This document shows positions 1,310 to 9,558 of a stretch of 10,491 bases of DNA, one piece after another. A program made the position numbers and the translations under genes. Origin of the DNA: Curvibacter sp. (GTDB lineage: Bacteria > Pseudomonadota > Gammaproteobacteria > Burkholderiales > Burkholderiaceae_C); assembly GCA_003500955.1 (NCBI GenBank), contig DNQP01000290.1, positions 1 to 10,491 of the forward strand. Direction: 5' to 3'. The notes beneath the pieces were generated by a model. It was given only the letters and a program-made list of their open reading frames with translations. It was not told the origin of the DNA and ran no database searches. Position 1 is the stretch's first letter, and the number at the start of each line of letters is the position of its first letter.

Positions 1310-2016
<707 letters not shown>

Positions 2017-2134
2017 ACCTTCCCGGCGGGTGCTTCACACCCGGCCCTGTGTTTTTGAGTCCCCGCTTTACCTAGGGGAAACACTGATGTGGCCTAATTC
2101 TTGCGAATCCTGACCTAAACCTGACTTTCAGACC
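2017..2134 (+). promoter_or_regulatory. Intergenic region between the ABC operon and the efflux operon; likely holds the efflux promoter
   Basis: This 118-base gap is visibly less GC-rich than the flanking genes, as expected for a promoter region. It must hold the end of the ABC transcript and probably the start of the efflux transcript. I found no convincing intrinsic terminator for livF and no clear -35/-10 pair; TTGAGT at 2055-2060 has no good -10 at 17 bases. The stretch CCTAGGGGAAACACTGATG at 2071-2089 stands out from its surroundings and could be a regulator site, but this is unproven. Confidence 0.35.
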
Positions 2135-2554
2135 ATGCTTGGCCCGAACCGTTCCCACCCGCTCCCTGCCGCCGGCATGCGCACGGTCTGGCTGGGGCTG
2201 CTGGTTCTGCTGGCCGCGCTTCTCTGGTCCTGGGCCCAGGCCCAGGCCGCGCCGACCCCCCTGGACATCAGCGATGACGAGACGGTCTATTGGGCGATGG
2301 CGGATGCCCCGGTCGAGGACATCGAACCCAGCGAGTCCGCCCTGAGTCCCGCCCGGGACCTGATCTGTCGCAAGCCCGCGCCCTACAAGCCCGGTGCCGA
2401 CCAGGTGCCCCACGAAATTGCCCACCAGGACCTCCTGTCCGGTCCCGACCGATGGATCGCCCTGCCACAAGGCGTCCCGGTCCAGGGACCGCAGCCCGAA
2501 TTGCCGCAGACCGAACGCAAGCCCCTGCTGCGTCCGCCTGCGCGCCTGGGCTGA
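2135..2554 (+). CDS. Small exported protein of unknown function preceding the RND genes
   Basis: I do not recognise this protein (139 residues from the ATG at 2135). Residues 15-39 look like a signal peptide: M-R start, a Leu-rich core, WSW, then AQAQAA as a likely cleavage region. Translation may therefore start at the ATG at 2177 (residue 15); neither start has a clear Shine-Dalgarno. The mature part is about 100 residues, with an acidic patch (DISDDE), a single cysteine (C78) and a proline-rich C-terminal third. Codon use matches the neighbours, which argues that it is real. It precedes the RND genes in the same direction with an 81-base gap. In Cupriavidus the small exported CzcI sits in the same position, but the His-rich character I associate with CzcI is absent. 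A periplasmic accessory role in efflux is inference from position. Confidence 0.72.
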   Translation: MLGPNRSHPLPAAGMRTVWLGLLVLLAALLWSWAQAQAAPTPLDISDDETVYWAMADAPVEDIEPSESALSPARDLICRKPAPYKPGADQVPHEIAHQDLLSGPDRWIALPQGVPVQGPQPELPQTERKPLLRPPARLG

Positions 2555-2581
2555 TCTCCCGCATCTGCTCTGGGCTCACGC

Positions 2582-2604
2582 CCGGCCCGGCCAGACCGGG
2601 CCGG
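2582..2604 (+). other. Perfect GC hairpin followed by a T tract upstream of the outer-membrane factor gene
   Basis: CCGGCCCGG (2582-2590) and CCGGGCCGG (2596-2604) form a perfect 9-bp stem with a 5-base loop. A run of six T follows at 2618-2623, 13 bases past the stem. The gap is too long for a standard intrinsic terminator. It may act as a weak attenuator or mRNA-processing/stability element that sets efflux-gene expression relative to the small upstream gene. Confidence 0.5.
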
Positions 2605-2635
2605 CTGCGGCATCCCGTTTTTTACTGAGGATTGA

Positions 2636-3940
2636 ATGAACAAGACCAAGATCTGGCGGCGCTGGACCGCCAGCCTGTTGCTCTGCCCCCTGGCCGTGTT
2701 GGCCCAGCCGGCGAGCGAAGCTCCACAGCGGGCGAGCGCGACGCCCGCAGCGACGGCTGCCGAGGCCGGCACCGCCTACACCCTGGATGCGCTGGTTGAG
2801 CGGGTGCTGACCCACAACCCCACGCTGCAGGGCGCGCGCAGCGCGCGTGTCCAGGCCGAGGCCGGCATCCGCACGGCCGGGGCCCTGCCCAACCCACGGC
2901 TGGAGGTGAGCGACGGCCGCCAGCGGCCCAACGGCGTAGGCGGTACCAATGGCAGCATCACGGGCTGGGGCGTCTCGCAGCTGATCGAGAACCCCTGGCT
3001 GCGCAGCGCGCGCGTGGATGCCGCCGAGCAGGGCCTGCGCAACAGCGAGGCGCAGCTGGGCCTGACGCGCGCCGAAGTCGTGGCCCAGGCCAAGCTGCGG
3101 GCCTACGAGGTGCTGTTGCGCATCGAGGAATCGCGCGCTGCCGACGACGAACTGCAGCTGCTGGAGCAGACCCGTGACCGCGTGCGTGTGCGCGTTGACA
3201 GCGGCGAGGCGGCGCGCTACGAGATCATCAAGGCCGAGGCCGAGTTCATCAGCGCGCGCCAGCGCCAGCAGACGGCCCAGCTCGCCGTGGAGCAGGCGCG
3301 CATCCGCCTCAACCAGCTCGCCGGCGGCCAGCTGCCCCTGGGCTGGACGCTCAACGCCCGGCTCGAAGACGCACTCCCCCCGGTGCAGGCACCGCTGCTG
3401 CGCGAACAGCTGCTCAGCACCAACCCCGAGCTGCAGGGCTTGCGCGCCCAGCTCGAGCGCCAGCAGGCGCGCGTGCGCGAAGCCAGCGCCAGCCGCTGGC
3501 CTGGCGTGGAACTGCGCTACGACGACCTGCGCGATCCCGACAACCGCCAGGGCGTGATTGGCGCCAGCATCCAGATCCCGCTGCTGGACCAGAAGCGCGG
3601 CCCGCGCGCCGAGGCGGAGGCCGAGACGACACGCGCACGCACCCGGCTCGAGGCCCGACAGATCGAACTGCAACTGCAGCTCGACTCGGCCGTGATGGCA
3701 CTCGAGATGGCACGCCTGCGCGTGGAGGCGCTGGGCCAGGGCGCGATCCGCGACGCCGAGGCCGCCGTGCGGGTGGCCCAGGCCGCCTACCGTTTTGGCG
3801 AGCGCGGCATCCTCGACGTGCTCGATGCGCAGCGCGTGCTGCGCACCGTGCGCGCCGACCTGCTGCAGGCCCGTTACCAGCAGCAGGCCGCGGCCATTGA
3901 AATCGATCTCCTGACCGGCCGCGACGCCGTCCAACCCTGA
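2636..3940 (+). CDS. czcC: Outer-membrane factor of an RND efflux system (CzcC/TolC family)
   Basis: This 434-residue protein is the outer-membrane channel component that would carry substrate out of the cell. A signal peptide is visible at the N-terminus (KIWRRW, hydrophobic core, LAQPA cleavage region near residue 24). No lipobox cysteine is seen, so it is probably not a lipoprotein. The mature chain shows the twofold repeat of outer-membrane efflux proteins. The first half has NPTLQGARS near residue 60 and the second NPELQGLRA near residue 262. Each is followed by a long Ala/Gln/Arg-rich coiled-coil stretch and a short beta segment. GAGGA at 2627-2631, only 4 bases before the ATG, is the likely ribosome-binding site. 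The gene begins the CBA order typical of CzcCBA operons. The family is secure; the symbol denotes family, not proven metal specificity. Confidence 0.9.
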   Translation: MNKTKIWRRWTASLLLCPLAVLAQPASEAPQRASATPAATAAEAGTAYTLDALVERVLTHNPTLQGARSARVQAEAGIRTAGALPNPRLEVSDGRQRPNGVGGTNGSITGWGVSQLIENPWLRSARVDAAEQGLRNSEAQLGLTRAEVVAQAKLRAYEVLLRIEESRAADDELQLLEQTRDRVRVRVDSGEAARYEIIKAEAEFISARQRQQTAQLAVEQARIRLNQLAGGQLPLGWTLNARLEDALPPVQAPLLREQLLSTNPELQGLRAQLERQQARVREASASRWPGVELRYDDLRDPDNRQGVIGASIQIPLLDQKRGPRAEAEAETTRARTRLEARQIELQLQLDSAVMALEMARLRVEALGQGAIRDAEAAVRVAQAAYRFGERGILDVLDAQRVLRTVRADLLQARYQQQAAAIEIDLLTGRDAVQP

Positions 3941-3959
3941 CCCCGCAAGACGACACATC

Positions 3960-5120
3960 ATGAACAAGCAACACACAATCTTCCGGCCGGCGCTGCTGGC
4001 CACGCTGCTCACGGCTGCCGTGCTGGCGGGCTGCGGCAAGGGCGCGTCCGAAGGCAGCACGGCCGAGACGGCCGTCGATCCCGACCTGGTGGTGGTCAAT
4101 GCCGAGATGGCGCGCAATTTCACTGTCGCGCCGCTGGCCCTGAAGAAGGTCAGCACCGAGCGTGACCTGCCCGGCCGCATCGAGGCCAACGAACAGCTGG
4201 TCACGCGCATCGGCGCCTCCGTCACGGGCCGTGTCACCGAGGTCTATGCCGAGGTGGGCGCGCGCGTGCGCGCCGGCCAGCAGCTGGCCCGGGTCTCCAG
4301 CCCCGACCTCACCAACGCCCAACTGGCCTATCTGCGTGCGCATTCCGCCACCAACCAGGCGCAGCGTGCCGTCGAACGCGCACAGGCGCTGATCCAGGCC
4401 GACGTGATCGGCTCGGCCGAGCTGCAGCGCCGTGAGGCCGAACTCTCCATCGCGCGTGCCGAGCTGCGCGCCGCCACGGATCAGCTGCTGCTGCTCGGCG
4501 TCTCCACGGAATACATCGAGCGCCTGCGCGACCGGGGGCAGCTTAGCCCCTACGCCGGCGTCAACGCGCCGCGCTCGGGTGTGGTGATCGAGCGCAAGGT
4601 CAGCCAGGGCCAGGTGGCCCAGCCGGGCGACCCGCTGTTCACGATTGCCGACCTCTCCAAGGTCTGGGTCGTGGGTGCGCTGCCCGAGCAGGACGCGTCG
4701 GCCGTGCAGATGGGCCAGCGCGTGGAGATCCGCGTGCCCGCGCTGCCGCAGCGCGAGTTCAAGGGCAAGGTGGTGTTCGTGAGCGACACCATCTCGCCCG
4801 AGACCCGCACGCTGATGGTCCGTACCGAGGTGGACAACGCCGACCGAGCGCTCAAGCCCCAGATGCTGGCCACGCTGCGCATCATCGGGGCCCCGCGCGA
4901 ACAGCTGGCCGTGCCCGAGGCGGCCGTGGTGCGCGACAACGACAAGGACCACATCTACGTGCAGACGGCGGCGGGCCAGTTCCGCCTGACCCCGGTCGAA
5001 CTCGCCCCGGCCACGGCCGGTGTGCGCCCCCTGCTCAAGGGCCCGGCCGCCGGCACGCCCGTGGTGGTCGATGGCGCCTTCCATCTGAACAACGAGCGCA
5101 AGCGCGCGGAACTGGAGTAA
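3960..5120 (+). CDS. czcB: Periplasmic adaptor lipoprotein of an RND metal-efflux system (CzcB family)
   Basis: This 386-residue membrane-fusion protein would bridge the RND pump and the outer-membrane channel. The N-terminus has a lipoprotein signal with lipobox LAGC (residues 22-25), so C25 is the probable lipidated residue and the protein is anchored to the inner membrane. The barrel-sandwich halves are visible (ASVTGRVTEVYAEVGARV at about 82-99, and APRSGVVIERKVSQGQVA near 203-220), flanking an alpha-helical hairpin. A beta-barrel domain (FTIADLSKVWVVGALPEQD onward) and a membrane-proximal domain follow. I see no His-rich or Met-rich metal-binding stretch and no fused CusF-like domain. 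It lies 19 bases after the channel gene with only a weak ribosome-binding site, and 3 bases before the pump gene. Confidence 0.92.
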   Translation: MNKQHTIFRPALLATLLTAAVLAGCGKGASEGSTAETAVDPDLVVVNAEMARNFTVAPLALKKVSTERDLPGRIEANEQLVTRIGASVTGRVTEVYAEVGARVRAGQQLARVSSPDLTNAQLAYLRAHSATNQAQRAVERAQALIQADVIGSAELQRREAELSIARAELRAATDQLLLLGVSTEYIERLRDRGQLSPYAGVNAPRSGVVIERKVSQGQVAQPGDPLFTIADLSKVWVVGALPEQDASAVQMGQRVEIRVPALPQREFKGKVVFVSDTISPETRTLMVRTEVDNADRALKPQMLATLRIIGAPREQLAVPEAAVVRDNDKDHIYVQTAAGQFRLTPVELAPATAGVRPLLKGPAAGTPVVVDGAFHLNNERKRAELE

Positions 5121-5123
5121 GCC

Positions 5124-8100
5124 ATGCTCACCTCCCTGATCCGTGCCGCGCTCAGCCAGCGGCTGGTGGTGGTCGTGCTGGCCCTGGTGCTCTGCGCCTT
5201 CGGCGTGCGCGAAGCCACCCGCCTGTCGGTGGACGCCTTCCCCGACGTGACCAACGTGCAGGTCCAGATCGCGACCGAAGCCACGGGCCGCTCGCCCGAG
5301 GAGATCGAGCGTTTCGTGACCGTGCCGCTGGAGATCGCCATGACCGGCCTGCCCGGGCTGGTGGAGATGCGCTCGCTCAACAAGAGCGGCCTGTCCATCA
5401 TCACCCTGGTCTTCACCGATGCCACCGACGTCTACTTCGCCCGCCAGCTCGTGCTGGAGCGCCTGATCGAGGTCACGCCGCGCATGCCCGCGGGCATCAC
5501 CCCCGTGCTGGGTCCGGTCTCGACCGGTCTGGGCGAGGTCTACCAGTACACCCTGGACCACCCGGACGACGGCCAGCGCGCCCTCACGCCAGAGGAACTG
5601 GCCGAGCGCCGCATCGTGCAGGACTGGGTGGTGCGCCCGCTGCTGCGTTCCATCCCCGGCGTGGCCGAGATCAACTCCCAGGGCGGCTATGTGCGCCAGT
5701 ACCAGGTGCTGGCCAAGCCCGAGCGGCTGCTGCACCACAACATCAGCATCGAGCAGGTCTACGAGGCGGTGGCCAAGAACAATGCCAACGCCAGCGGTGG
5801 CATCCTGCCGCAGCGTTCCGAGCAGTACCTGATCCGCGGCGTGGGCCTGATCCGTACCCTGGAGGACATTGCCAACATCGTGGTGCGCGAGAAGAACGGC
5901 GTGCCGCTCTATGTGCGCGACCTGGCCGAGGTGACCATCGGCCACGAGGTGCGCCAGGGTGCGATCATCAAGGGTGGCTACACCGAGTCGGTCTCGGGCA
6001 TCGTGCTCATGATGCGTGGTGGCAATGCCAAGCAGGTGGTCTCCCGTGTCCAGCAGCGCGTGGAAGAGATCAACAGCAAGGGCATGCTGCCCGGCGGCCT
6101 GCAGATCGTGCCTTACTACGATCGCACCGAGCTCGTCGATTCGGCGCTGTGGACCGTGGGCAAGGTGCTGATCGAAGGCATCTTCCTCGTGGTGGTGGTG
6201 CTTTTCATCTTCCTGGGCGACGTGCGCTCCAGTCTGATCGTGGTGGCCACGCTGGTCATCGCGCCGCTGACCACCTTCATCCTGATGAACCGCTACGGCA
6301 TCTCGGCCAACCTGATGTCGCTCGGTGGCCTGGCCATCGCCATCGGCCTCATGGTCGACGCCACCGTGGTGGTGGTGGAAAACGTCTTCCATCGCCTGGG
6401 TCTGGCCAAGCCCGGCACCTCGCGCGTGCGCCTGGTGCTGGAAGCCACGCAGGAGGTGGCCACGCCCACGGTCTTCGGCATCGTCATCATCATGCTGGTG
6501 TTCCTGCCGCTCATGACGCTGCAGGGCATCGAGGGCAAGATGTTCGCCCCGCTGGCGCTGACCATCGTGATCGCCCTGGGCATCTCGCTGCTGGTCTCGC
6601 TGATCCTCTCGCCCGTGCTGTGCTCCTACATCCTCAAGGGCGGGGCCGACCACGACACCAAGGTCATCGCCGTGCTCAAGAGCGCCTACCTCAAGCTGCT
6701 GGACCGTGCGCTGGACCGGCAGAAGGCCACGCTGGCCGCGGCGATAGGTCTGCTGCTGTTCTCGCTGGCGCTCTTTCCCTTCCTGGGCAAGTCCTTCATG
6801 CCGACGATGAAGGAGGGCGCGCTCACGCCGCAGATCAACCGCGTACCCAGCATCTCGCTCGACGAATCCATCCGTCTCGAAATGGCGGCCATGAAATCCG
6901 TGGCCGAGGTCGAGGGCGTGCGCAGCGTGGTGTCCAAACTGGGCCGTGGCGAATCGCCGGCCGATCCGGCGGGCCCGAACGAGTCCGATCCCATCGTGCT
7001 GCTGGACCCCGATTCCGACCGCACGCAGGACGAGATCGATGAGGAGATCCGCCAGCGCCTCTCGTCCATCCCCGGCGTGCAGATCGTGCTCTCGCAGCCG
7101 ATCTCGGAGCGGGTCGACGAGATGGTCACGGGCGTGCGCTCGCAACTGGCCATCAAGATCTTCGGTGACGACCTGGGCGAGCTCAAACGCGTTTCCGAGC
7201 AGATCGCGCGCCTGCTGCGCAACGTCCCCGGTGCGCGTGACATCCGCATCGAGCGCCTCTCGGGCCAGCAGGCCCTGACCATCGACATCGACCGCAAGGC
7301 CATCGCGCGCCACGGCATCAACGTGGCTGAGGTGCACAACCTGATCGAAACCGCCATTGGCGGCCGCGAGGTGAGCCAGCTCTACGAGGGCGAGCGCCGT
7401 TTCGGCATTGCCGTGCGCTTCCCCGAGGAAGACCGCAACTCGGTCGAGACCATCCGCAAGATGCTGCTTCGTGCGCCCGACGGGGCCCTGGTGCCCCTGG
7501 CCTCGGTGGCCAGCATCGAGCTGCGCGACGGCCCGGCCCAGATCAGCCGCGAAAGCGGCAAGCGCCGCGTGGTGGTCGGTGCCAACGTCGAAGGGCGTGA
7601 CCTGGCCGGCTTCGTGGCGGAGGTGGAGCAGCGCATCGCCAAGGAGGTCAAGGTGCCCGAGGGCTACTACTTCGTCTACGGCGGCCAGTTCGAGAACATG
7701 GAGCGCGCCATGGCCACGCTGACCATCATCGTGCCCATCACCATCGCGGCCATCTTCTTCCTGCTCTTCCTGCTGTTCAACTCGCTGAAGCTGGCCTCGC
7801 TCATCATCCTGGTGCTGCCGTTCGCCTCCATCGGTGGCCTGATTGGCCTGGCCGTCACGCGCGAGTACCTCAGCGTGCCGGCCTCGGTGGGCTTCATCGC
7901 GCTCTGGGGTATCGCCGTGCTCAACGGCGTGGTGCTGGTGAGCTACATCCGCCGTCTGCGCGAGGACGGCATGGCCGTGATGCAGGCCGTGCGCGAAGGC
8001 TGCGTGGCGCGTTTCCGTCCCGTGATGATGACGGCCACCGTGGCCCTGCTGGGCCTGGTGCCCTTCCTCTTCGCCACCGGGCCGGGGTCGGAAGTGCAGA

Positions 8101-8210
8101 AGCCGCTGGCCATCGTGGTCATTGGCGGTCTGATTTCGTCTACATTGCTGACCCTGGTGGTGCTGCCGGCGCTCTATCGCTGGTTTGACGAGAGCCCGAT
8201 CGAGGCCTGA
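5124..8210 (+). CDS. czcA: Heavy-metal efflux RND pump (CzcA/CusA family, HME-RND)
   Basis: This is the inner-membrane proton/substrate antiporter of the efflux complex. Its 1028 residues are close to the 1040-1060 usual for the family. TM1 is at about 10-30, followed by the first large periplasmic loop. TM2-TM6 span about 345-500, TM7 is near 534-552, the second periplasmic loop follows, and TM8-TM12 run from about 865 to 1018. The TM4 motif reads AIGLMVDATVVVVEN with D412 and E419, matching the essential D408 and E415 of CzcA. The third acidic residue of CzcA (D402 in DFG) is alanine here (A406), as in CusA. The methionines that bind Cu/Ag in CusA (M573, M623, M672) align by eye with Q570, E620 and E666, which argues against a Cu/Ag pump. 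Metal specificity is therefore open. GGAG at 5114-5117 supports the start. Confidence 0.95.
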   Translation: MLTSLIRAALSQRLVVVVLALVLCAFGVREATRLSVDAFPDVTNVQVQIATEATGRSPEEIERFVTVPLEIAMTGLPGLVEMRSLNKSGLSIITLVFTDATDVYFARQLVLERLIEVTPRMPAGITPVLGPVSTGLGEVYQYTLDHPDDGQRALTPEELAERRIVQDWVVRPLLRSIPGVAEINSQGGYVRQYQVLAKPERLLHHNISIEQVYEAVAKNNANASGGILPQRSEQYLIRGVGLIRTLEDIANIVVREKNGVPLYVRDLAEVTIGHEVRQGAIIKGGYTESVSGIVLMMRGGNAKQVVSRVQQRVEEINSKGMLPGGLQIVPYYDRTELVDSALWTVGKVLIEGIFLVVVVLFIFLGDVRSSLIVVATLVIAPLTTFILMNRYGISANLMSLGGLAIAIGLMVDATVVVVENVFHRLGLAKPGTSRVRLVLEATQEVATPTVFGIVIIMLVFLPLMTLQGIEGKMFAPLALTIVIALGISLLVSLILSPVLCSYILKGGADHDTKVIAVLKSAYLKLLDRALDRQKATLAAAIGLLLFSLALFPFLGKSFMPTMKEGALTPQINRVPSISLDESIRLEMAAMKSVAEVEGVRSVVSKLGRGESPADPAGPNESDPIVLLDPDSDRTQDEIDEEIRQRLSSIPGVQIVLSQPISERVDEMVTGVRSQLAIKIFGDDLGELKRVSEQIARLLRNVPGARDIRIERLSGQQALTIDIDRKAIARHGINVAEVHNLIETAIGGREVSQLYEGERRFGIAVRFPEEDRNSVETIRKMLLRAPDGALVPLASVASIELRDGPAQISRESGKRRVVVGANVEGRDLAGFVAEVEQRIAKEVKVPEGYYFVYGGQFENMERAMATLTIIVPITIAAIFFLLFLLFNSLKLASLIILVLPFASIGGLIGLAVTREYLSVPASVGFIALWGIAVLNGVVLVSYIRRLREDGMAVMQAVREGCVARFRPVMMTATVALLGLVPFLFATGPGSEVQKPLAIVVIGGLISSTLLTLVVLPALYRWFDESPIEA

Positions 8211-8220
8211 CAAGAAGACT

Positions 8221-8225
8221 AAGGA
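8221..8225 (+). promoter_or_regulatory. Ribosome-binding site of the P-II-like gene
   Basis: AAGGA sits 8 bases before the ATG at 8234. It favours that start over the in-frame ATGs at 8243 and 8246, even though those would give an N-terminus closer in length to classical GlnB. Confidence 0.6.
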
Positions 8226-8233
8226 ACAAAGAC

Positions 8234-8578
8234 ATGAAAAAAATGATGGAAATCCGCGCCATCGTGCGCCCCAGCCGTCTGTCGCAGCTGCGTTATGCGC
8301 TGCACGACATCCCCAACTTCCCGGGCCTCACGATGATGAAGGCCGAGGGCTTCACGGCCCCGGCCGCCGTCGGCAAGCGCACGGTGAAAGAGGAGCTGAT
8401 CGACTACACCCCCAAGATCATGGTGGCTGTGCTGGCCGATGAAGACATGGTGGAGGAGATCCGCAAGACCATCATCGAGAGCTGCAGCACCGGTCAGATC
8501 GGCGACGGCCTGGTCTGGACCGTACCGATCGCCAGCATGCACCGCGTGCGCAACGGCTCGGACATGCTGGCCGAGTGA
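8234..8578 (+). CDS. Divergent P-II family signalling protein linked to the RND pump (PII-NG-like)
   Basis: This 114-residue protein matches the P-II (GlnB/GlnK) fold from end to end: IRAIVRPSRL at 7-16, GF at 39-40 before the T-loop, YTPK at 58-61, B-loop TGQIGDG at 86-92, and HRVRNG at 103-108. P-II proteins are trimeric cytoplasmic sensors that bind adenine nucleotides and act by docking the T-loop on partner proteins. Aligned by eye to E. coli GlnB, several key residues differ. Uridylylation Tyr51 is E54, Gln39 (Mg/2-oxoglutarate site) is P43, Gly37 is T41, and Lys90 is L93. Lys58, Arg101 and Arg103 are kept as K61, R104 and R106. It is thus unlikely to be a standard nitrogen regulator. 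It follows the pump gene by 23 bases and ends the operon, which suggests control of the pump. An A7 run at 8237-8243 follows the start codon. Confidence 0.9.
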   Translation: MKKMMEIRAIVRPSRLSQLRYALHDIPNFPGLTMMKAEGFTAPAAVGKRTVKEELIDYTPKIMVAVLADEDMVEEIRKTIIESCSTGQIGDGLVWTVPIASMHRVRNGSDMLAE

Positions 8579-8600
8579 ATCAGCGCGATCTGAAATGAAG

Positions 8601-8628
8601 GAGCCCGGCAAAGCCGGGCTCTTTTTTT
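8601..8628 (+). terminator. Intrinsic terminator of the efflux operon
   Basis: A perfect 9-bp stem, GAGCCCGGC (8601-8609) and GCCGGGCTC (8613-8621), with an AAA loop is followed at once by seven T (8622-8628). It lies 22 bases after the P-II-like stop codon and between converging genes. The opposite strand has the same stem but only a poor T tract, so it should act mainly on the + strand. Confidence 0.95.
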
Positions 8629-8637
8629 GTGGGGGGC

Positions 8638-9042
8638 CTAGCCGACCTGCGCTCTCAGCTGTGCCACCGTTGCCGGCTGCATCTCGAACCCGGCGGGCAG
8701 GCCCGGGTTGATGACGATGCCCTGCTCCGGCGCCATGCCCTTGAGCAGGCGCGCGAGATCCGTGGACCGCCCGAAGCCAAAGGTGGTCTGGCGCTTCGAC
8801 CATGCATCGGCGCGTTCAGGTGCCGTGAAGAGGGCCAGGAAGGGCGTCTTCTTGGCATCGGCGAGCACCATGGGCGTCGCGCCGTGGTCCCAGACCCCTC
8901 CGGCCTGGCTATCCCTGTCGGTCAGGACGTAGACGGTGGCGCTCAGCAAGGTCTGCACAAAGGTGGCTACCGGTATCTGGCTTTGCAGGGCCGCCACCAG
9001 GGCCCGCTCCAGATCGTTCAAGGGCTCGAAAGGCTGTCGCAT
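8638..9042 (-). CDS. SseB-family protein
   Basis: This 134-residue soluble protein resembles the SseB N-terminal domain family. The pattern is a leading helix (LNDLERALVAAL), then IPVATFVQTLLSATVYVLTD, a beta segment with PMVLADAKKTPFLALFTAPERADAW, and a late GIVINPG motif. The name comes from E. coli SseB. The domain is widespread, often as a short stand-alone protein of unknown biochemical role, and does not by itself mean type III secretion. It follows the membrane protein gene on the same strand with a 21-base gap, so the two are probably co-transcribed. The ATG at 9042 has only a weak G-rich ribosome-binding site. The stop lies 10 bases beyond the T tract of the converging operon's terminator. 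Confidence 0.78.
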   Translation of the reverse strand: MRQPFEPLNDLERALVAALQSQIPVATFVQTLLSATVYVLTDRDSQAGGVWDHGATPMVLADAKKTPFLALFTAPERADAWSKRQTTFGFGRSTDLARLLKGMAPEQGIVINPGLPAGFEMQPATVAQLRAQVG

Positions 9043-9063
9043 CGTCCCAGCCCCGCCTGCAGC

Positions 9064-9558
9064 CTAGCGCGGCCGGGCGTTGTGCACGGCAAACCAGCTG
9101 CTGATGAGCGCGCCGATGATGACCACGATGGGGGCGGCGTTGTCGGCGATGGCGCGGATGCTTTGCACCAGCCAGTTGCCGCTGGGCGCGGCGGGGGCCG
9201 TGACGTAGCCACCGGCCGGCGCCACGCGCTCGCTGGGGTCGGCCACGCCGGCGGCGGCATCGGCGGCCACGATGGCCAGCGCGGTGATCAGCAGCCCGGT
9301 GAGGCCCAGCCAGCGGCCCTGCCGCAGCCGTGCCAGCAACACGATGCCCAGGTGCATGCTCAGCAGCACGCCGATGGCGATGGCTGGCGCCAGCGCCAGC
9401 CGGGTCAGGTAGCGGCTCAGCAGCACATAGGCCAGGCCCGCAACGATGGCGAGCACGACCAGCGCCGCATGGGCCGCCGCTCTCCGGAGCTCAGGCTGGG
9501 GCGGCGAGGGCGGGGTGAACTCTGGCAGCTGGGAGGGGCGGAACTCGGGTTTCAACAC
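9064..9558 (-). CDS. Unrecognised four-helix membrane protein (GTG start)
   Basis: I do not recognise this 164-residue protein. A proline-rich, probably cytoplasmic N-terminus (residues 1-26) is followed by hydrophobic helices at about 28-48, 54-76, 83-101 and 138-158. A short polar, Pro/Gly/Ala-rich loop separates the last two. The start is GTG at 9558. The frame has no ATG near it, and GGAAAA on the minus strand about 9 bases upstream can serve as ribosome-binding site. It precedes the SseB-family gene in a likely two-gene unit. The extreme Ala/Leu richness makes distant similarities unreliable. No motif points to transport, enzyme or signalling activity. Confidence 0.7.
   Translation of the reverse strand: MLKPEFRPSQLPEFTPPSPPQPELRRAAAHAALVVLAIVAGLAYVLLSRYLTRLALAPAIAIGVLLSMHLGIVLLARLRQGRWLGLTGLLITALAIVAADAAAGVADPSERVAPAGGYVTAPAAPSGNWLVQSIRAIADNAAPIVVIIGALISSWFAVHNARPR

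Follow-up and report, generated by a model that had tools for sequence, protein, structure and literature searches.

A C-terminal pump signature tracking the PII-NG gene: a candidate docking site for a P-II protein on a heavy-metal efflux pump

P-II proteins are central metabolic switches. GlnK is encoded beside a trimeric membrane transporter, AmtB, and the gene of the P-II-like SbtB adjoins that of its transporter SbtA. A distinct P-II clade, PII-NG ('new group'), has its gene beside a CzcCBA-type pump, as described in two papers (PMC7726332; PMC11617674), both of which cite Sant'Anna 2009 as the founding study. Here we analyse a 10,491-nucleotide stretch of Curvibacter sp. DNA (contig DNQP01000290.1 of assembly GCA_003500955.1; hereafter, the window), which is contig 116 in a 3.3 Mb draft genome and in which a P-II gene follows the gene of a heavy-metal efflux (HME) pump of the resistance-nodulation-division (RND) type. 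The protein falls within PII-NG as already published, so the gene pair is of a known kind and not new. What is new is a signature in the pump that is present or absent along with the P-II gene and is, on the sequence comparisons given below, best read as a P-II docking site. In our view, P-II probably serves one subclass of HME-RND pumps as a regulatory subunit that is dedicated to them yet removable, docking via the pump tails. The features concerned are as follows.

5124..8210, + strand: HME-RND pump, 1028 amino acids, ATG start (TIGR00914, 1106 bits; tree; site comparison)
6429..6431, + strand: codon of pump residue R436 in the loop between transmembrane segments 4 and 5 (TM4-TM5), the second most P-II-associated column
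8166..8207, + strand: C-terminal cytoplasmic tail of the pump, PALYRWFDESPIEA, residues 1015-1028, the proposed docking peptide (motif and column comparisons)
8234..8578, + strand: PII-NG protein, 114 amino acids, ATG start (PF00543; clade support 98; AlphaFold model)

The pumps encoded beside PII-NG share a common tail, P-x-LYRWF[DE][DE]xxx[EQ]A followed by the stop, which in the window ends YRWFDESPIEA-COOH. The motif is present in 72 of the 77 such pumps in the named set from which it was derived and absent from all 58 rows for unlinked HME pumps (those with no PII-NG) in 60 genomes; these rows were drawn from ∼ 106 unlinked HME pumps above the cut-off (126 less 20, among the matches listed), and one row (L005) was trimmed at an incorrect position. 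With the final ten codons as a DNA pattern, 36 matches were obtained in 34 of 300 genomes of the order, compared with 3 for the reversed pattern. Thirty of the 36 loci were read, of which 27 proved to be HME-RND pumps (including that of the window) and 3 chance matches, and PII-NG is found directly behind 26 of these 27 pumps. The other six matches are five PII-NG-bearing pumps (L300, L301, L302, L305 and L314) and one frameshifted pump end (L347, in genome G700), which carries the tail motif.

Since the tail and the P-II gene could both descend from one ancestor, we searched for losses of P-II. Homologues of the window pump were sought across the 300 genomes of the order, with the two best candidates per genome scored, and the related pumps (53-100% identity) were clear of all others (at most 47%) among the matches listed. 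Eighty of them were read with their flanks regardless of tail: 47 have PII-NG directly behind and 33 have no P-II within the flanks read, which were ∼ 1.5 kb on each side for most. P-II matches of 106-112 bits (L315, L316, L329, L331 and L334) were counted as PII-NG, other P-II proteins scoring at most 94 with the same profile. Duplicates (L272, L285 and L291) and fragments (L278 and the front piece of L315) were left out before counting, L347 makes no pump row, and L312b was taken from an overlapping region rather than from the list. The pump gene of L315 is broken by an in-frame stop, and that of L347 is frameshifted at its end. Ten of the 80 pumps (WIN, G036, G037, G047, G050, G283, G514, G524, G548 and G520) had tails that were already known when the motif was fixed; the tails of the other 70 were unseen.

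In a pump tree from which the tail columns were excluded, we count 14 changes in the presence of P-II, no fewer than 10 of which fall on well-supported (starred) branches, and the P-II gene and the tail are repeatedly present or absent together. The strict, pre-fixed motif was found in 30 of the 47 pumps with P-II vs 1 of the 33 without (Fisher p 7e-9), a glutamate followed by alanine or proline at the very end (the E[AP] end) in 42 of 47 vs 1 of 33, and E1023 in 45 of 47 vs 4 of 33. All 47 P-II-positive pumps have tails of 14-15 residues, whereas the tails of the others range from 11 to 61 residues and only 10 of the 33 fall at 14-15. Among ten phylogenetically independent pairs, the E[AP] end changed in the same direction as P-II in 9.6 and in the opposite direction in 0.1 (median p 0.002); the respective values for E1023 were 8.2 and 0.0 (median p 0.008). 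For example, the pump of L311 (G659), which has no P-II, ends ..WFEERR, whereas its P-II-positive relatives L314 (G737) and L284 (G700) end ..WFEERRVEA. At two loci SbtB occupies the place of PII-NG behind a pump of the same clade, in L123 as an SbtA-SbtB pair (798-2094) and in L333, and in both the tail is without the E-A end.

The P-II start lies mostly 0-100 bases behind the pump, with stop and start overlapping in several loci, and together with the uniform tail length of 14-15 residues in 47 of 47 pumps this could mean that the start and ribosome-binding site of a tightly packed P-II gene constrain the 3' end of the pump gene at the level of DNA. The codons argue otherwise. In the 42 P-II-positive E[AP] pumps, the glutamate is encoded by GAG in 20 and GAA in 22, and the final alanine by GCC in 21, GCA in 8, GCT in 7 and GCG in 4 (two have proline); both codons still vary in the 35 of these pumps that are separated from P-II by 10 nt or more. 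This free synonymous variation indicates that it is the amino acids that are kept, not the DNA. Furthermore, the tails of L031 and L032 end in EA although P-II lies upstream of the pump, and R436, whose codon is 1.7 kb away, is also associated with P-II. A packing artefact therefore appears unlikely, and we allow it only a small probability.

When a scan was confined to the C-terminal half and took in all 80 pumps, it was the tail columns that ranked highest (E1023, phi 0.84; best body column, 0.48). Across 844 columns of the 75 full-length pumps (L269, L281, L284, L312b and L315 are not full-length and were left out), phi was 0.84 for E1023, 0.66 for R436, 0.62 for both A1028 and E1027 and at most 0.54 for the rest, against a maximum of 0.47 in 30 shuffles of the labels, which, unlike the independent-pairs tests, ignore relatedness. 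Residue 436 is arginine in 42 of the 43 P-II-positive full-length pumps vs 12 of the 32 P-II-less ones. From the fold and topology of RND pumps, we take R436 to lie in the TM4-TM5 cytoplasmic loop (TM4 reads AIGLMVDATVVVVEN) and the tail to follow TM12; the four best columns (E1023, R436, A1028 and E1027) would therefore all be cytoplasmic.

Association is not contact, and the tail and R436 might simply mark a pump subtype, defined by its metal, its assembly or a third partner, in which PII-NG is kept without touching the pump; body columns 498, 782 and 622 are moderately associated with P-II as well (phi at most 0.54). Several observations speak against this explanation, which we regard as rather unlikely. 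The top four columns are, by RND topology, on the cytoplasmic side, to which a soluble protein could attach. P-II-less pumps occur in 26 genomes, 24 of which show no PII-NG with a score beyond that of other P-II proteins; the exceptions are G737 and G700. The motif is found in a single P-II-less pump, L320, and this pump belongs to one of the two exceptions, G737, which encodes PII-NG at another locus. Finally, the PII-NG proteins of L018 and L014 are 95% identical whereas their pumps, both tail-bearing, are 64% identical; conversely, the pumps of L014 and L033 are 82% identical and their P-II proteins 71%, and the pump of L033 has the tail pattern too. Approximately unbiased tests of incongruence between the P-II and pump trees were not significant (p 0.06-0.25), so that the case for reshuffling of PII-NG between pumps rests on these identities (95% vs 64%). 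PII-NG thus seems to have been exchanged between pump types, a pattern that would be more in keeping with a docking peptide than with an extended surface shaped by co-evolution.

Close PII-NG genes are almost always linked to RND pumps. Of 76 close PII-NG loci (80 named-record loci minus the distant L088-L091), 74 have an RND gene no more than 161 bp away; one exception, L030, has its contig end 33 bases past P-II and the other, L086, is described below. In 60 related genomes, and among the matches listed, not one of 114 canonical P-II matches has an HME pump within 10 kb on its contig, whereas 19 weak P-II matches (18 PII-NG and the more distant L127) are separated by 13-84 bp from a same-strand HME pump; 16 of the 36 weak matches are not near an HME pump. 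Two of these 16, L161 and L193, were read as SbtB beside SbtA; the weak match of G037, 1 kb from a pump, is SbtB behind SbtA, and that of G018 (L015), also one of the 16, sits at a contig start with a pump fragment adjoining. Draft genomes have contig breaks. The gene is placed upstream of the pump in L031 and L032 and between two pumps in L035 (4900-11511) and L043 (4899-11508), where the order is outer membrane factor (OMF), periplasmic adaptor (membrane fusion protein, MFP), RND1, PII, RND2, with one PII-NG and both clade pumps tail-bearing. L313 (1457-8179) carries two tandem pump-PII-NG pairs.

In wider samples of the class (274 genomes) and the phylum (299 genomes), PII-NG is scarce: each gave six matches above the score gap, the window among them, and all six in each sample are beside an RND pump, as compared with 0 of 24 lower-scoring P-II loci read in each (∼ 1.5 kb on each side). 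No close PII-NG was found on plasmids, where 79 records all showed less than 60% identity (40 listed at 29-37%). This near-total linkage agrees with that of published PII-NG (PMC7726332; PMC11617674), and the linkage to RND pumps proposed by the earlier note on this DNA was borne out by the tabulation (74 of 76 close homologues vs 0 of 114 canonical P-II genes, the latter among the matches listed).

The window P-II protein has a P-II domain (PF00543, 48.1 bits, cut-off 25) and falls far short of the NCBI equivalog cut-offs for GlnB/GlnK (50 bits vs 202, the GlnB cut-off, and 39.5 vs 181). In a tree of 111 P-II proteins it belongs to a clade of 48 rows, PII-NG, which is separated from the 57 canonical-labelled rows with a Shimodaira-Hasegawa-like approximate likelihood ratio test (SH-aLRT) support of 98; two of the 57 (L088 and L089) branch closest to it, and the deeper order is unresolved, the program warning of few columns and long branches. 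SbtB is found on a separate branch, and the window protein, next to an RND pump, does not qualify as SbtB. The nearest records by P-II gene are from Burkholderiaceae, Hylemonella and Curvibacter. Y51, Q39 and K90 are each found in 0 of 42 close PII-NG proteins vs 56, 57 and 57 of 57 canonical ones, whereas G35, K58, the B-loop GDG, R101 and R103 are retained in all 42, so the classical nucleotide/2-oxoglutarate site appears partly kept and partly lost. We take Q39 to be the Mg/2-oxoglutarate residue and K90 the phosphate lysine; with both lost, 2-oxoglutarate sensing of the classical kind is unlikely, and adenine-nucleotide binding is possible. In the AlphaFold model, a single chain, the mean predicted local distance difference test score is 88.6, dropping to 58 and 69 in the T-loop blocks 41-50 and 51-60, and all 50 PDB matches listed for it are P-II structures.

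These data dispose of the suggestion that an ordinary GlnB or GlnK has come to lie there by chance: it shares the Pfam family and the fold, but the separate clade, a score of 50 bits against the GlnB cut-off of 202 and the loss of Y51, Q39 and K90 rule it out, and the genome of the window already has two canonical-scoring P-II matches (112 and 114 bits), leaving this option next to no probability. The name PII-NG, which the earlier note had brought up for the 114-residue protein, is apt, as the protein belongs to a clade outside GlnB/GlnK that is in print (PMC7726332; PMC11617674), and its phylogeny does not place it inside ordinary GlnB/GlnK, the outcome that the same note had named as fatal to its proposal. 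Another role, that of a CutA1-like cytoplasmic metal sensor signalling to a regulatory cascade, has been suggested for Geobacter GSU2134, whose operon is cobalt-induced and Fur-regulated, according to PMC7726332. For the PII-NG protein studied here this role is unlikely and we give it very little weight: no conserved Cys or His column was seen by eye in the PII-NG alignment (the Cys of the window ESC-STG is missing in many rows), the Pfam scan of the protein gives the P-II domain only, Pfam and NCBI family scans revealed no regulator gene in the operon of the window, and the pump tail would be left unexplained.

The window pump scores 1106 bits against TIGR00914, the CusA/CzcA family (cut-off 701), and forms part of its own HME-RND subclade in the tree. 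CusA-type pumps, which export Cu and Ag (HME4), have three binding methionines. At these columns, located from the CusA-like rows L155 and L156, the window pump has Q570, E620 and E666 and so is not of the CusA type; the replacement of the methionines suggests divalent cations over Cu(I)/Ag(I) as its substrates.

Docking of P-II on the pump tail has to be weighed against a number of observations that do not favour it. The strict motif is missing from 17 of the 47 P-II-positive pumps and its independent-pairs result is 5.5 in the same direction and 0.1 in the opposite one (median p 0.03, range 0.03-0.22), whereas the E[AP] form was picked after the tails had been seen. Five P-II-positive pumps lack the E[AP] end, four of them in one clade (L122, L331, L332 and L335) plus L316. 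R436 follows P-II less firmly than the tail does, being retained in some P-II-less pumps and not significant in independent pairs (median p 0.06). Genome G700 has PII-NG elsewhere, yet its P-II-less pump L344 has no tail. Among the more distant P-II loci linked to RND genes, L090 and L091 have no such tail; in L127 (G050), where an HME pump from a different clade (42% identity) adjoins a divergent P-II (29%), the pump ends in LYRNFEEKYQT, which resembles the tail only in part and is possibly convergent. In L086, a close PII-NG (56% identity) follows an ABC (ATP-binding cassette) importer (2655-6927; binding protein, fused permease and ATPase), possibly a change of transporter partner. Lastly, the P-II-linked pumps show no extra conservation of the cytoplasmic loops or of the cytoplasmic face as a whole, and their clade-specific residues are not enriched in cytoplasmic segments. 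The earlier note had proposed docking on the cytoplasmic face of the pump; the C-terminal tail and, less firmly, the TM4-TM5 arginine track the P-II gene and lend this proposal an indirect support that the note did not yet have, so that its interpretation is borne out in part.

On balance, we favour a mechanism in which the P-II and RND trimers would share their three-fold symmetry, P-II lying against the cytoplasmic side of the pump and each of its subunits holding the C-terminal tail of one pump subunit (F-[DE]-E-x(2-4)-E-A-COOH) beside R436. A ligand of the adenine-nucleotide type would set whether P-II is bound or released, and P-II would in turn hold back or allow the proton-driven efflux of metal, in the way that GlnK controls AmtB and SbtB controls SbtA. 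The physical contact, the trimer stoichiometry, the ligand and the direction of control are all parts of the model that we infer. We also lean, with somewhat less confidence than for the docking itself, towards seeing here the first case of an RND efflux pump regulated by a P-II protein at a defined docking site (the E-A-COOH peptide and E1023, flanked by R436), the pair having been lost or gained together some ten times in one order and the regulator being able to act in trans.

The gene order on the single strand is OMF-MFP-RND-P-II, and the pump part of the operon spans 2636-8210. Its remaining features are the following.

2636..3940, + strand: OEP/TolC-family outer membrane factor, part of the tripartite pump (PF02321, 125 bits)
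3960..5120, + strand: periplasmic adaptor of the CusB/CzcB type (PF16576, 222 bits; TIGR01730, 159 bits)
8211..8233, + strand: pump/P-II spacer, 23 bases, with a Shine-Dalgarno-like AAGGA at 8221-8225 (by-hand reading)
8601..8628, + strand: hairpin (8601-8621) and seven T (8622-8628), likely the intrinsic terminator of the operon (folding; by-hand reading)

Because the genes are tightly packed, the pump and P-II genes are probably co-transcribed. The earlier note had both genes at their exact coordinates (RND 5124-8210, P-II 8234-8578, 23 bases between them, same strand). It also spoke of a strong terminator: a hairpin with a T-run does lie 3' of P-II, and folding of 8590-8640 gives -24.5 kcal/mol (z -2.4), but a consensus scan of 1950-9100 lists this hairpin on the minus strand only. 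The same scan showed no excess of terminator-like sites (2 vs a shuffle mean of 2.3) and no promoter-like site. An SseB-domain gene (8638-9042, - strand) is convergent with the operon, and the hairpin may serve both strands. Upstream of the OMF gene, a 139-residue open reading frame (ORF; 2135-2554) has no Pfam match, and tblastn finds counterparts in only some near relatives. Two ABC ATPase genes (6-731 and 1306-2016) of the UrtD/UrtE or Liv type, below the equivalog cut-offs, have a 192-residue ORF between them.

In the open-licence full-text literature, which does not include Sant'Anna 2009, we found neither the tail/R436 signature nor its repeated loss with P-II, nor any tested mechanism for the metal-pump-linked P-II group; the available parts of PMC3637150, PMC3169532, PMC8218464, PMC4316997 and PMC10434189 contain nothing on PII-NG with pumps. 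A short, sharply defined tail that tracks the P-II gene makes this open question of mechanism simply testable. If the docking model is true, RND metal efflux would be gated from the cytoplasm by cell metabolism, a layer of control that we did not meet in the same literature.

Compared with known systems, the window pump resembles CusA, ZneA and CzcA in belonging to TIGR00914 and in its PDB matches (4k0e, ZneA; 3k07, CusA), and differs from them in its own subclade, in Q570/E620/E666 and in the tail RWF[DE][DE]xxxEA. The PII-NG operon of Geobacter has the P-II gene first (PMC7726332), whereas in the window it comes last. With SbtB-SbtA, as seen in L161 and L193, the locus shares a P-II-like gene adjoining a transporter gene, although the window P-II belongs to another branch and its transporter is a different one. 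As in GlnK-AmtB, the P-II protein is encoded beside a membrane transporter; here, however, the transporter is a proton-driven RND pump, Q39, K90 and Y51 are not kept, and docking would be through the C-terminal tail.

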